Shown here: positions 2,900 to 5,381 of the stretch, piece after piece
Numbering within the stretch: position 1 is the first letter of the stretch
How the letters are laid out: every line of letters begins with the position of its first letter
NCBI RefSeq assembly: GCF_015624425.1
Contig: NZ_CP049919.1
Location: forward strand, 1,798,001-1,862,000
Direction: 5' to 3'
DNA from: Roseateles sp. DAIF2
GTDB taxonomy: Bacteria; Pseudomonadota; Gammaproteobacteria; Burkholderiales; Burkholderiaceae_C
Length of the DNA: 64,000 nucleotides
Position numbers and translations under genes: made by a program
Notes under the pieces: generated by a model
The model's input: the letters and a program-made list of their open reading frames with translations, nothing else
What the model was told of the DNA's origin: nothing
Databases searched by the model: none

Positions 2900-2919
2900 T
2901 GCTGTATGTATATACAGTA
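2900..2919 (+). promoter_or_regulatory. LexA operator (SOS box), second copy
   Basis: TGCTGTATGTATATACAGTA is a near-perfect LexA box: CTG and CAG separated by ten bases of alternating T/A with one G. It lies 26 bp before the ATG of the 30-codon frame at 2946 and 125 bp before the divergent broken permease. Position and orientation favour control of the short rightward frame. Confidence 0.85.
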
Positions 2920-2945
2920 TTCAATCCGCCGAGCGAGGCCCGATC

Positions 2946-3038
2946 ATGCACCACCCGTCCGCCTACCGCCAGACCTATCAACCCGCCCCCGCGCTGCGCC
3001 TGCCGCGCTGGCTGCTGAGCATCTGGTATTGGTTCTGA
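2946..3038 (+). CDS. Candidate SOS-induced 30-residue peptide
   Basis: A 30-codon frame begins at ATG 2946, with CGAGG as a plausible ribosome binding site 7 bp before it, and ends at TGA 3036-3038. The peptide starts MHHPSAYRQTY, has a Pro/Ala/Leu middle and a strongly hydrophobic aromatic end (RWLLSIWYWF). It lies directly downstream of a textbook LexA box and is followed by a cluster of hairpins that could end its transcript. Length, hydrophobic end and LexA control recall the E. coli TisB class of SOS-induced membrane peptides, but there is no sequence match to claim and the hydrophobic stretch is shorter. Translation is unproven. Confidence 0.55.
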   Translation: MHHPSAYRQTYQPAPALRLPRWLLSIWYWF

Positions 3039-3046
3039 CCCACTCA

Positions 3047-3207
3047 GCCCACCCCCTACGGCCTGCGGCCGCCCCCTCAAGGGGGCCGAGGCCGGACACA
3101 AACAGTCCTGAGGACTGTTTGTGTCTGCCGAGGGCCAAGGACTCTGGCCTTGGCACGTCCGTAGGACCGGCAAAGCCGGATCCTCGGACGTCGCTGGGTG
3201 GGGCAAT
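3047..3207. repeat. Composite hairpin cluster / intergenic repeat
   Basis: Four hairpins follow one another between the SOS peptide frame and the convergent arsC-like gene. The first is GCCCCCT-CA-AGGGGGC (3071-3086), inside a C-rich repeat (3047-3087) that recurs elsewhere in this window. The second has perfect 14 bp arms (3095-3108 and 3112-3125) around a TGA loop. The third is GCCAAGG/CCTTGGC (3134-3140, 3148-3154). The fourth is a long stem at 3155-3191 with ACGTCCG/CGGACGT outer arms and an AAA loop. No transposase is nearby. It may act as a transcription barrier. Confidence 0.7.
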
Positions 3208-3216
3208 GCGTCCGAA

Positions 3217-3573
3217 CTAGAGCAGCTGCAGCAGCAGCTCCGGCGGCCGCGCGATCACGGCGCGCTCGCCATGCACGACGATGGGGCGCTGCAGCAGCTT
3301 CGGATGCGCGGCGATGGCCTGCAGCACGGCCTCATCGCTCAGGGAGGCGTCGGCCAGACCCAGGCTGGCGTATTCCTCCTCGCCGCTGCGCAGCAGCTCG
3401 CGTGCAGGCAGGCCCAGCTGCGCAAGCAGGCTGCGCAGCTCGCCCGGCTGCGGCGGGTTCTGCAGGTAATCGACCACTTCGGGATCAAGCCCGCGCGCCT
3501 GCAGCAGGGCCAGGGCCTCGCGCGACTTCGAGCAGCGCGGGTTATGAAAAATGCGAATGAGCTTCTGTGCCAT
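3217..3573 (-). CDS. ArsC-family (arsenate reductase-like) protein
   Basis: A thioredoxin-fold protein of about 118 residues. It begins QKLIRIFHNPRCSKSR, with the redox cysteine in the HNPRCSKSR loop typical of glutaredoxin-dependent ArsC. It then has the ArsC-type segment VVDYLQNPPQPGELRSLL, and ends with the LLQRPIVVHGERAVIARPPE strand-loop carrying the conserved RPIV-x(7-9)-R region. The start is placed at MAQK (3573), because the in-frame ATG six codons upstream would add a non-conserved extension. It stands alone with no arsenic resistance genes beside it, so it may be a YffB/Spx-like member rather than a true arsenate reductase. Confidence 0.82.
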   Translation of the reverse strand: MAQKLIRIFHNPRCSKSREALALLQARGLDPEVVDYLQNPPQPGELRSLLAQLGLPARELLRSGEEEYASLGLADASLSDEAVLQAIAAHPKLLQRPIVVHGERAVIARPPELLLQLL

Positions 3574-3668
3574 GGCCCCAGGGTAAACCATAGCGCTGGT
3601 CGAGCCTGCCCCTCAGTACCCTCCGCGGTCCCGGAGTCGCAAGACGCCGCCGCGCACGAGGAGGCCGG

Positions 3669-5381
3669 ATGGCCGCGAGGAAAGACAAGACCGATGCCTA
3701 TCGGACCCTGCATCAGGGCTTCCGCTGGCAGGTGCCCGAGCAGTTCAGCCTCGCCGAGGCCTGCTGCGGCCGCTGGGCTCGCGAGACGCCGGAGGCCACG
3801 GCCATCCTGTTCGAAAGCGACAGCGGTTGCCGTGCGCAATACAGCTACGGCCAGCTGCAGCGCGCCGCGAACCGCCTCTCGAATGTGCTGAAGCGCCTGG
3901 GCGTCGCGCGCGGCGACCGGGTCGCGATCGTGCTGCCGCAGCGCTTCGAGACCGCGGTCGCGCATATCGCGATCAACCAGCTCGGCGCGATCGCGATGCC
4001 GCTGTCGATGCTGTTCGGCCCGGAGGCGCTGGAGTACCGGCTGCAGGACAGCGGCGCGGTGCTGGCCCTGGCCGAATGCGCGGCGCTGCCGGCGCTGCGC
4101 GGCGTGCGCGCGAACTGCCCGGCGCTGAAGCACCTGATCGTGGTCGGCGAATGCCCGGCCGGGCCGGACGAGATCGGCTGGATGGGGGCGCTGCAGGCCG
4201 AGGATGCGCGCTTCACGGCCGAGCGCATGCGGGCCGAGGACGCCGCGGTGCTGATCTACACCAGCGGCACCACCGGCCAGCCCAAGGGCGCGCTGCTGCC
4301 GCAGCGTGCGCTGATCGGCAATCTGAGCGGCTTCATCGCGAGCCAGAACTGGTTCGGCTTCGATCCCGACGATGCGACGCGGCCGACCCGGGCCGTGTTC
4401 TGGAGCCCGGCCGACTGGGCCTGGACCGGCGGGCTGATGGATGCGCTGCTGCCGACGCTCTACTTCGGCCGGCCGATCCTGGCCTATCAGGGCCGCTTCG
4501 CGCCGGACAAGGCCTTCGAGCTGATGGCCGCGCATGGCGTCACCCACACCTTCCTGTTCCCCACCGCGCTGAAGGCGATGATGAAGGCGGTGCCGCGGCC
4601 GCGCGCCAGCTATCCGGGCCTGCGCCTGGAGGCGGTGATGAGCGCCGGCGAGGCGGTCGGCGACGCGGTGTTCGCCTATGGCCGCGAGCAGCTCGGCCTG
4701 ACGATCAACGAGATGTTCGGCCAGACCGAGATCAACTATGTGGTCGGCAACTGCAGCCGGCTCTGGCCGGCCAAGCCCGGCAGCATGGGCCGAGCCTACC
4801 CGGGGCACCGGGTCGCGGTGATCGACGAGGCGGGCAAGACCTGTCCCCCGGGCGTGGCCGGCGACGTGGCGGTGCACCGCCGCGATGTGCATGGCGAGCC
4901 GGACCCGATCTTCTTCCTCGGCTACTGGAACAACGAGGCGGCGACGCGCGCCAAGTTCAGCGGCGATCCGGACGACAGCTGGTGCCGCACCGGCGATATG
5001 GCGCTGCAGGACGAGGACGGCTACCTCTGGTACCAGGGCCGCAGCGACGATGTGTTCAAGGCCGCCGGCTACCGCATCGGCCCCAGCGAGATCGAGAACT
5101 GCCTGGTCAAGCATGCGGCGGTCGCGAACGCCGCGGTCGTGCCCAAGCCCGATGCCGAGCGTGGCGCGCTGGTCAAGGCCTTCGTTGTGCTGGCGCCGGG
5201 TCACCAGGGCTCGGCCGCGCTGGTGGCCGAGCTGCAGGCCCATGTGAAGGGCCGGCTCGCGCCCTACGAGTACCCGAAGGAGATCGAGTTCATCGAGGCC
5301 CTGCCGATGACCACCACCGGTAAGCTGCAGCGGCGCGTGCTGCGCGAGTTGGAGCGCGAGCGGGCGGTGGCGGGGGCTTAG
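3669..5381 (+). CDS. Acyl-CoA synthetase (AMP-forming, medium-chain/acetate-like)
   Basis: A 570-residue ANL-superfamily adenylating enzyme. It shows the P-loop-like motif YTSGTTGQPKG (about 197-207), the A5-type motif MFGQTEINY, the A7/A8 region WCRTGDMALQDEDGYLWYQGRSDDVFKAAGYRIGPSE (described by its key TGD and GR-x-DD-x-(F/I)-K residues), and the C-terminal catalytic lysine in TTTGKLQRR. It would activate a carboxylic acid to acyl-AMP and then acyl-CoA in the cytoplasm. Overall architecture resembles the medium-chain (ACSM/AcsM) group; the substrate cannot be read from sequence. It is a single gene whose stop overlaps the convergent gene at 5378 by four bases. Confidence 0.88.
   Translation: MAARKDKTDAYRTLHQGFRWQVPEQFSLAEACCGRWARETPEATAILFESDSGCRAQYSYGQLQRAANRLSNVLKRLGVARGDRVAIVLPQRFETAVAHIAINQLGAIAMPLSMLFGPEALEYRLQDSGAVLALAECAALPALRGVRANCPALKHLIVVGECPAGPDEIGWMGALQAEDARFTAERMRAEDAAVLIYTSGTTGQPKGALLPQRALIGNLSGFIASQNWFGFDPDDATRPTRAVFWSPADWAWTGGLMDALLPTLYFGRPILAYQGRFAPDKAFELMAAHGVTHTFLFPTALKAMMKAVPRPRASYPGLRLEAVMSAGEAVGDAVFAYGREQLGLTINEMFGQTEINYVVGNCSRLWPAKPGSMGRAYPGHRVAVIDEAGKTCPPGVAGDVAVHRRDVHGEPDPIFFLGYWNNEAATRAKFSGDPDDSWCRTGDMALQDEDGYLWYQGRSDDVFKAAGYRIGPSEIENCLVKHAAVANAAVVPKPDAERGALVKAFVVLAPGHQGSAALVAELQAHVKGRLAPYEYPKEIEFIEALPMTTTGKLQRRVLRELERERAVAGA

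Follow-up and report, generated by a model that had tools for sequence, protein, structure and literature searches.

A conserved small-peptide gene family behind LexA boxes in Roseateles-type bacteria, with a possible part in an SOS checkpoint

Layout of the locus

The window analyzed here is a stretch of 64,000 nucleotides from Roseateles sp. DAIF2 (contig NZ_CP049919.1, positions 1,798,001 to 1,862,000 of the forward strand), and positions below are counted from its first letter. On the plus strand, positions 2900 to 2919 hold a LexA (SOS) box, the 20-mer TGCTGTATGTATATACAGTA, with two mismatches to the E. coli consensus and a core at 2902 to 2917. The box is followed on the same strand by a ribosome binding site, GAGG (2935 to 2938), which lies 7 nt 5' of an ATG at 2946, itself 26 bp past the 20-mer. 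This ATG opens a gene (2946 to 3038, stop included) for a peptide of 30 residues, MHHPSAYRQTYQPAPALRLPRWLLSIWYWF, called from its frame, its conservation, and its ratio of nonsynonymous to synonymous change (pN/pS). The C-terminal end of the peptide reads LLSIWYWF. The initial annotation of this DNA had described a near-perfect LexA site 26 bp before a start codon with a ribosome binding site, and a 30-residue product with a Trp/Leu/Tyr-rich end; both descriptions are borne out.

A consensus scan places a -35 element, TTGGCA, at 2875 to 2880 and a -10 element, TATGCT, at 2898 to 2903 on the plus strand, with a 17-bp spacer; the -10 element overlaps the LexA box, and the -35 hexamer and the spacing are the same in genome G001. 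This pair (2875 to 2903) is the sole promoter-like site on either strand between 2780 and 3700 in a scan for the sigma-70 consensus (mean of 0.1 in shuffles), and the same scan, which covers that consensus only, gave no minus-strand (antisense) promoter-like site in the interval. No Rfam match reached its gathering score between 2500 and 3700. As the initial annotation also had it, an ArsC-family gene (3217 to 3591) converges on the peptide gene, and the next plus-strand gene, for an AMP-binding enzyme, starts only at 3669. A TauE/SafE-like gene (2026 to 2774) is divergent on the minus strand, and some 125 bp separate its start at 2774 from the box; it spans two frames, with profile positions 2 to 74 in one and 74 to 237 in the other, and is broken here or misread. 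Starting 45 bp past the peptide stop, positions 3084 to 3136 form an inverted repeat (26 nt, 81% complementary, arms 1 nt apart); neither genus relative aligns over this stretch, and no terminator-like site was called in it.

The exact CTGT-N8-ACAG core occurs a single time in the whole window, at the box. By chance, 0.62 copies of this 16-base core are expected per window, and 48 of 100 shuffles have at least one. A core so common by chance led us to reject the window's box as proof when taken alone; it is the relatives that lift the box beyond chance.

Spread and conservation of peptide, box, and frame

The peptide is present in all three genomes of the genus, the window's own included (E values of 5.0e-17, 5.8e-17, and 9.9e-16), and the copies in the two others are 97% and 93% identical to that of the window; in a different genus (genome G015) identity is 62%. 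Profile A2 was built from 22 sequences, its members being picked by peptide motif, with no DNA and no box in the profile. Run against 399 genomes of the bacterial family, which span 141 genera, it matched 70 places (E ≤ 0.001), spread over 67 genomes and 31 genera. Among the named carriers of the peptide are Roseateles asaccharophilus, R. oligotrophus, and Paucibacter sp. KBW04. Among 27 new loci (L038 to L064), L054 and L064 had been excluded from A2 as nonmembers and near-identical copies thinned; some early matches had no locus and were unread at that stage, and several of these reappeared in the search of 399 genomes. The remaining 332 genomes had no detectable copy, a count from a search limited to the 20 to 45 top-ranking candidates of each genome and so no proof of absence; it suggests that the peptide is not a general requirement in the bacterial family.

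Outside the bacterial family, no members emerged from order searches with A2 and with A4 (300 genomes each), the latter an alignment of the window's peptide with 61 of the other 69, or from a class search with A4 (185 genomes). These searches returned 7 (A2, order), 18 (A4, order), and 1 (A4, class) outside rows, partly for identical places, all of which were read and rejected as having neither a box by the looser rule given below nor a short frame carrying the family's end. The same two grounds excluded L069, a partial match from a Geminicoccaceae assembly. As far as searched, the peptide family appears confined to the bacterial family that holds Roseateles. A mobile-element origin was also rejected, for want of phage, viral-contig, or significant plasmid matches: the window's peptide matched nothing among phages, viral contigs gave no match, and plasmids searched with one other family member gave only matches at E of 4 to 6. 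Apart from a partner gene described below, no neighboring gene is consistently common to the 70 loci, and therefore the peptide unit has either moved between sites or had its surroundings reshuffled.

Library searches returned no significant match to the peptide (best E of 0.19 in Pfam, 0.048 in PHROGs, and 0.15 in the PDB; none in NCBIfam). A Pfam scan of 22 peptides at E ≤ 1 returned a lone family, FAM209, for one member (E = 0.19), and no SulA (PF03846). On sequence grounds the peptide forms a small-protein family conserved among Roseateles-type bacteria. No description of it was met in the openly licensed papers listed, as judged by their titles and abstract openings; gene callers may skip it because it is short.

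Box and peptide were compared by two rules, a strict one (perfect core, at most 8 mismatches in 20, within 250 bp) and a looser one (within 420 bp, allowing up to 9 mismatches if the core is perfect and up to 8 if the core has one mismatch). A perfect-core box lies within 250 bp upstream in 54 of the 70 loci and within 250 bp downstream in none, and the rest of the same loci, 511,791 bases in all, holds one. The strict rule fails at 16 loci, where the box is imperfect or absent, and the looser rule at 3; a looser-rule site thus precedes 67 of the 70, whereas none of 16 chance hits from other bacterial families has one. From the start of the 20-mer to the ATG the median distance is 42 bp (50 of 54 within 85 bp). 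Genome G001 carries a box identical to that of the window, and G002 one with a perfect core and 5 mismatches, farther from the ATG. A promoter score of at least 9 out of 12 was found around the box in 17 of the 54 perfect-core loci and at 0.16% of random places in the same loci, a contrast that arises in part because the box itself is AT-rich. In 60 of the 70 members the start is preceded by a Shine-Dalgarno-like word, 4 bases or longer, a count that leans upward, starts having been chosen with that word as first criterion.

Members are 25 to 40 residues long, and 69 of 70 have a net charge of +3 to +7. Alignment of 62 members gives the consensus MxxxxRQxYRPxxxRxPxWLRRxWxWL, or in shorter form [YFL]RQxYRPxxxRxPxWLRRxWxWL, in which R8 and P20 are invariant and Y11, P13, W22, and W29 are kept in at least 90%. 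The C-terminal end is fixed in its spacing: counted back from the last residue, the proline of Px[WF] holds position 11 in 62 of 64 distinct peptides, and W[LFC] closes 63 of the 64. The fixed C terminus and the conserved residues offer clear sites for mutation work. For the idea of an FtsA-like membrane anchor, the C terminus of FtsA in the window's genome was compared with the peptide end by eye; the two are alike in general style only, and the idea is kept as no more than a lead.

The frame also bears the mark of purifying selection. Between close relatives, compared in 14 pairs, the differences were synonymous in 55.5 cases and nonsynonymous in 23.5 (pS = 0.19, pN = 0.025, ratio 0.13), 2 of 16 pairs having been dropped for unequal length and the pairs not being all independent, as several share a genome. 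Because change falls mainly at synonymous sites, we take the frame to be translated. Aligned across the genus, the peptide contrasts with the sequence past its stop, where conservation is poor, and upstream of it the box and leader are nearly identical between the window's genome and G001. The initial annotation had proposed as a check the joint conservation of box, ATG, and peptide in relatives, and all three are kept together across genera. The pattern that it took to speak against the peptide, a broken frame behind a kept box, was not seen: there is no internal stop among the 70 listed profile matches, a result to be read with the fact that the profile finds kept frames only. Its suggestion of a new family of SOS-controlled small peptides is thereby supported, through joint conservation and purifying selection, and we consider it almost certain that this is a real, translated, LexA-controlled gene family.

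The SOS system of the genome and the search for SulA

The window's genome encodes lexA (TIGR00498), and the region about 100 bp before that match has weaker sites only, with 1 and 2 core mismatches. The LexA-like pattern CTGTNTNTNNNNACAG occurs at 7 places in the genome: the peptide locus, recA, imuA, an unknown 100-residue gene, and three without a recognized SOS gene. Since the genome has both LexA and RecA and carries this type of box before recA and imuA, it can be taken to use the box type found before the peptide. A near-perfect LexA box, GACTGTATAAATATACAGTA, lies at 1499 to 1518 of locus L002 (G000:C1, about 2833426), 28 bp from a divergent gene of 100 residues that begins MYLDLQDPDSIVNWW and has no Pfam or NCBIfam match; this gene is another candidate SOS gene.

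SulA is the SOS-induced division inhibitor whose role the peptide would fill. No intact SulA was found with PF03846 in 80 genomes of the bacterial family, 40 drawn from the 67 carriers of the peptide and 40 from the 332 noncarriers. The model hit 1 of the 40 carriers, in a sequence with two stops inside, and 3 of the 40 noncarriers, all of them ImuA by NCBIfam. Replacement of SulA by the peptide through mutual exclusion was rejected on these counts, as SulA is equally missing from peptide-negative relatives and no exclusion is demonstrable. The SOS core of beta-Proteobacteria, as described in a study of their LexA regulon, comprises lexA, recA, dinB and/or polB, uvrA, and imuA-imuB-dnaE2, with no division inhibitor among them, and the word sulA is absent from the main text of that study (PMC3323433).

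Proposed roles and relation to known systems

The mechanism proposed below draws on the fixed C terminus and the net charge given above and on the physical character of the peptide end. The last ten residues have a mean hydrophobic moment of 0.64, compared with 0.37 when shuffled (0.53 for the window's own peptide), and the last 11 favor the membrane interface, with a mean of -5.1 kcal/mol. AlphaFold predicts a helix at residues 21 to 29 with a mean pLDDT of 76; its pTM of 0.26 makes this a local prediction only.

We propose, with a probability of roughly 0.4, that the product is a LexA-repressed peptide that sits at the membrane face or in a protein groove and blocks division or growth after DNA damage. 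Upon damage, RecA would make LexA cleave itself, and the peptide promoter would fire. The amphipathic Trp helix (PxWLxxxWxW[LF]) would then lie against the cytoplasmic membrane from the inside or in the groove of a protein, while the conserved RQxYxP part would bind a specific target. Most likely, cells would stop dividing or growing for a time, and the peptide would stand in for SulA and for the SidA of Caulobacter; in some genera the peptide may work beside a beta-rich SOS protein of about 70 residues. Conservation at the level of single residues favors a protein target over a simple pore, and division is the most likely outcome because no intact SulA was found and because other lineages have SOS division inhibitors of their own (SidA, YneA, SosA). 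YneA and SosA are, like SidA, lineage-specific. Several findings count against this mechanism: the lack of SulA is equal in peptide-negative relatives and so does not single out carriers; 332 of the 399 genomes have no detectable copy; the box fails the strict rule at 16 loci and the looser one at 3; and, the partner gene aside, neighboring genes give no functional link. In the broader terms that the peptide holds the cell back during DNA repair, the reading is probable.

A cationic, Trp-rich, amphipathic C terminus with a favorable interface energy, under a LexA box, would also suit an SOS-induced membrane toxin. Such a peptide would enter the inner membrane, lower its potential, and slow growth, producing the effect of TisB and DinQ with another architecture. 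We consider this doubtful, as none of the 64 distinct peptides has a stretch of transmembrane length (highest 19-residue Kyte-Doolittle mean 0.42, against a threshold of 1.6), the locus has no antisense promoter-like site in the sigma-70 scan, and what is kept is particular residues (R8, Y11, P13, P20, W22, and W29) rather than mere hydrophobicity.

The partner gene raises a second alternative. It encodes 62 to 77 residues with the consensus MNAPLLPEVL...SPQ..LPLATEGVQRYVWESRFGxMLIEVxDGVAYVNGxRVEP, and it adjoins the peptide gene on the same strand in 17 of the 70 loci (15 genomes; L155, L117, L114, and 14 others), 10 times downstream and 7 times upstream. In two of these loci stop and start overlap. 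Of 250 genomes searched from the bacterial family, 21 have the partner, and in 15 of these the peptide is present too. Among the 27 partner matches, 12 lie within 250 bp of a perfect-core box, 8 lie within that distance of a box mismatched at one core position, and 7 have neither; for the 16 matches away from the peptide the corresponding numbers are 5, 6, and 5. A protein search returned 1424 relatives, and among the best 120 of these the readable names were hypothetical or uncharacterized. No Pfam match was obtained for three members and no significant NCBIfam match for 15 (best E of 0.16), and viral contigs held no match. AlphaFold models the partner with four strands (mean pLDDT of 66, the central part being confident), and the model matched no PDB fold at E ≤ 0.001. 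Genome G092 holds three peptide-partner cassettes (L161, L169, and L170), of which one has a perfect-core box, one a box with a single core mismatch, and one no recognizable box. Together, the peptide and its partner indicate that this group's SOS regulon includes two or more small proteins absent from the libraries searched.

The adjacency, the two overlaps, the co-occurrence in 15 of 21 genomes, and the boxes before stand-alone partners are what one would expect of a two-protein SOS module, in which peptide and partner form a complex as toxin and antidote or as halves of an inhibitor; in partner-less genomes the peptide would act alone or with an unrecognized partner. We nonetheless hold such a module to be unlikely, given that neither the window's genome nor the two others of the genus yielded the partner, that 53 of the 70 loci have no adjacent partner, that the gap can reach about 210 bp (L151), and that shared control could itself bring two unrelated SOS genes side by side.

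Binding to a repair or replication protein, such as RecA, a translesion polymerase subunit, or the sliding clamp, would have the peptide tune SOS mutagenesis rather than division. The box type shared with recA and imuA in the genome and the particular residues conserved are consistent with this, but no neighbor other than the partner is conserved and no PDB sequence matched better than E of 0.15, which leaves it a rather improbable reading. That the box serves the divergent TauE-like gene, whose frame starts about 125 bp away, or a noncoding RNA, the peptide frame being incidental, is highly improbable, as neighbors differ in other genera while box and frame stay together, synonymous changes are in excess, and the region gave no Rfam match at gathering score.

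Returning to the block of division or growth at the inner membrane face, the peptide can be set beside several known systems. SulA is a folded protein (NCBIfam models of 157 to 169 positions) with no similarity to it. The initial annotation had raised E. coli TisB and DinQ, described as SOS-controlled toxic peptides, DinQ being a single transmembrane peptide of 27 residues and both loci having an antisense RNA (PMC3567139). Kinship with these is unsupported by the build of the peptide, which has a short amphipathic helix and a conserved polar motif in place of a transmembrane-length segment, and whose locus showed no antisense promoter-like site in the scan for the sigma-70 consensus. Two hypothetical genes with predicted LexA boxes in beta-Proteobacteria, hypA and hypB, resemble the peptide and its partner in being unknown LexA-box genes of related bacteria, as far as their description allows comparison; the genomes in the corresponding figure legend are of Burkholderia, Ralstonia, Cupriavidus, and Variovorax, not Roseateles (PMC3323433). 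By description, SidA of Caulobacter crescentus is similar in size and control, being 29 residues long, induced by LexA cleavage, and presented as a dedicated inhibitor of division at the time of damage (PMC4211646). SidA and the SOS-independent DidA are transmembrane and act on FtsW/FtsI/FtsN (PMC4211646), whereas the peptide has no such stretch and is predicted to form only the helix at residues 21 to 29.

With carriers in 31 of 141 genera, and a LexA box before most copies, the peptide is a direct candidate for a missing checkpoint. Our tentative picture is of an SOS checkpoint new to the Roseateles family, in which a cationic, Trp-tailed peptide, alone or together with a beta-rich partner that LexA also controls, would arrest division or growth by docking specifically at the inner face of the membrane. 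If this is correct, the peptide would represent an independent evolutionary answer to the problem that SulA, SidA, and YneA solve in their own lineages.
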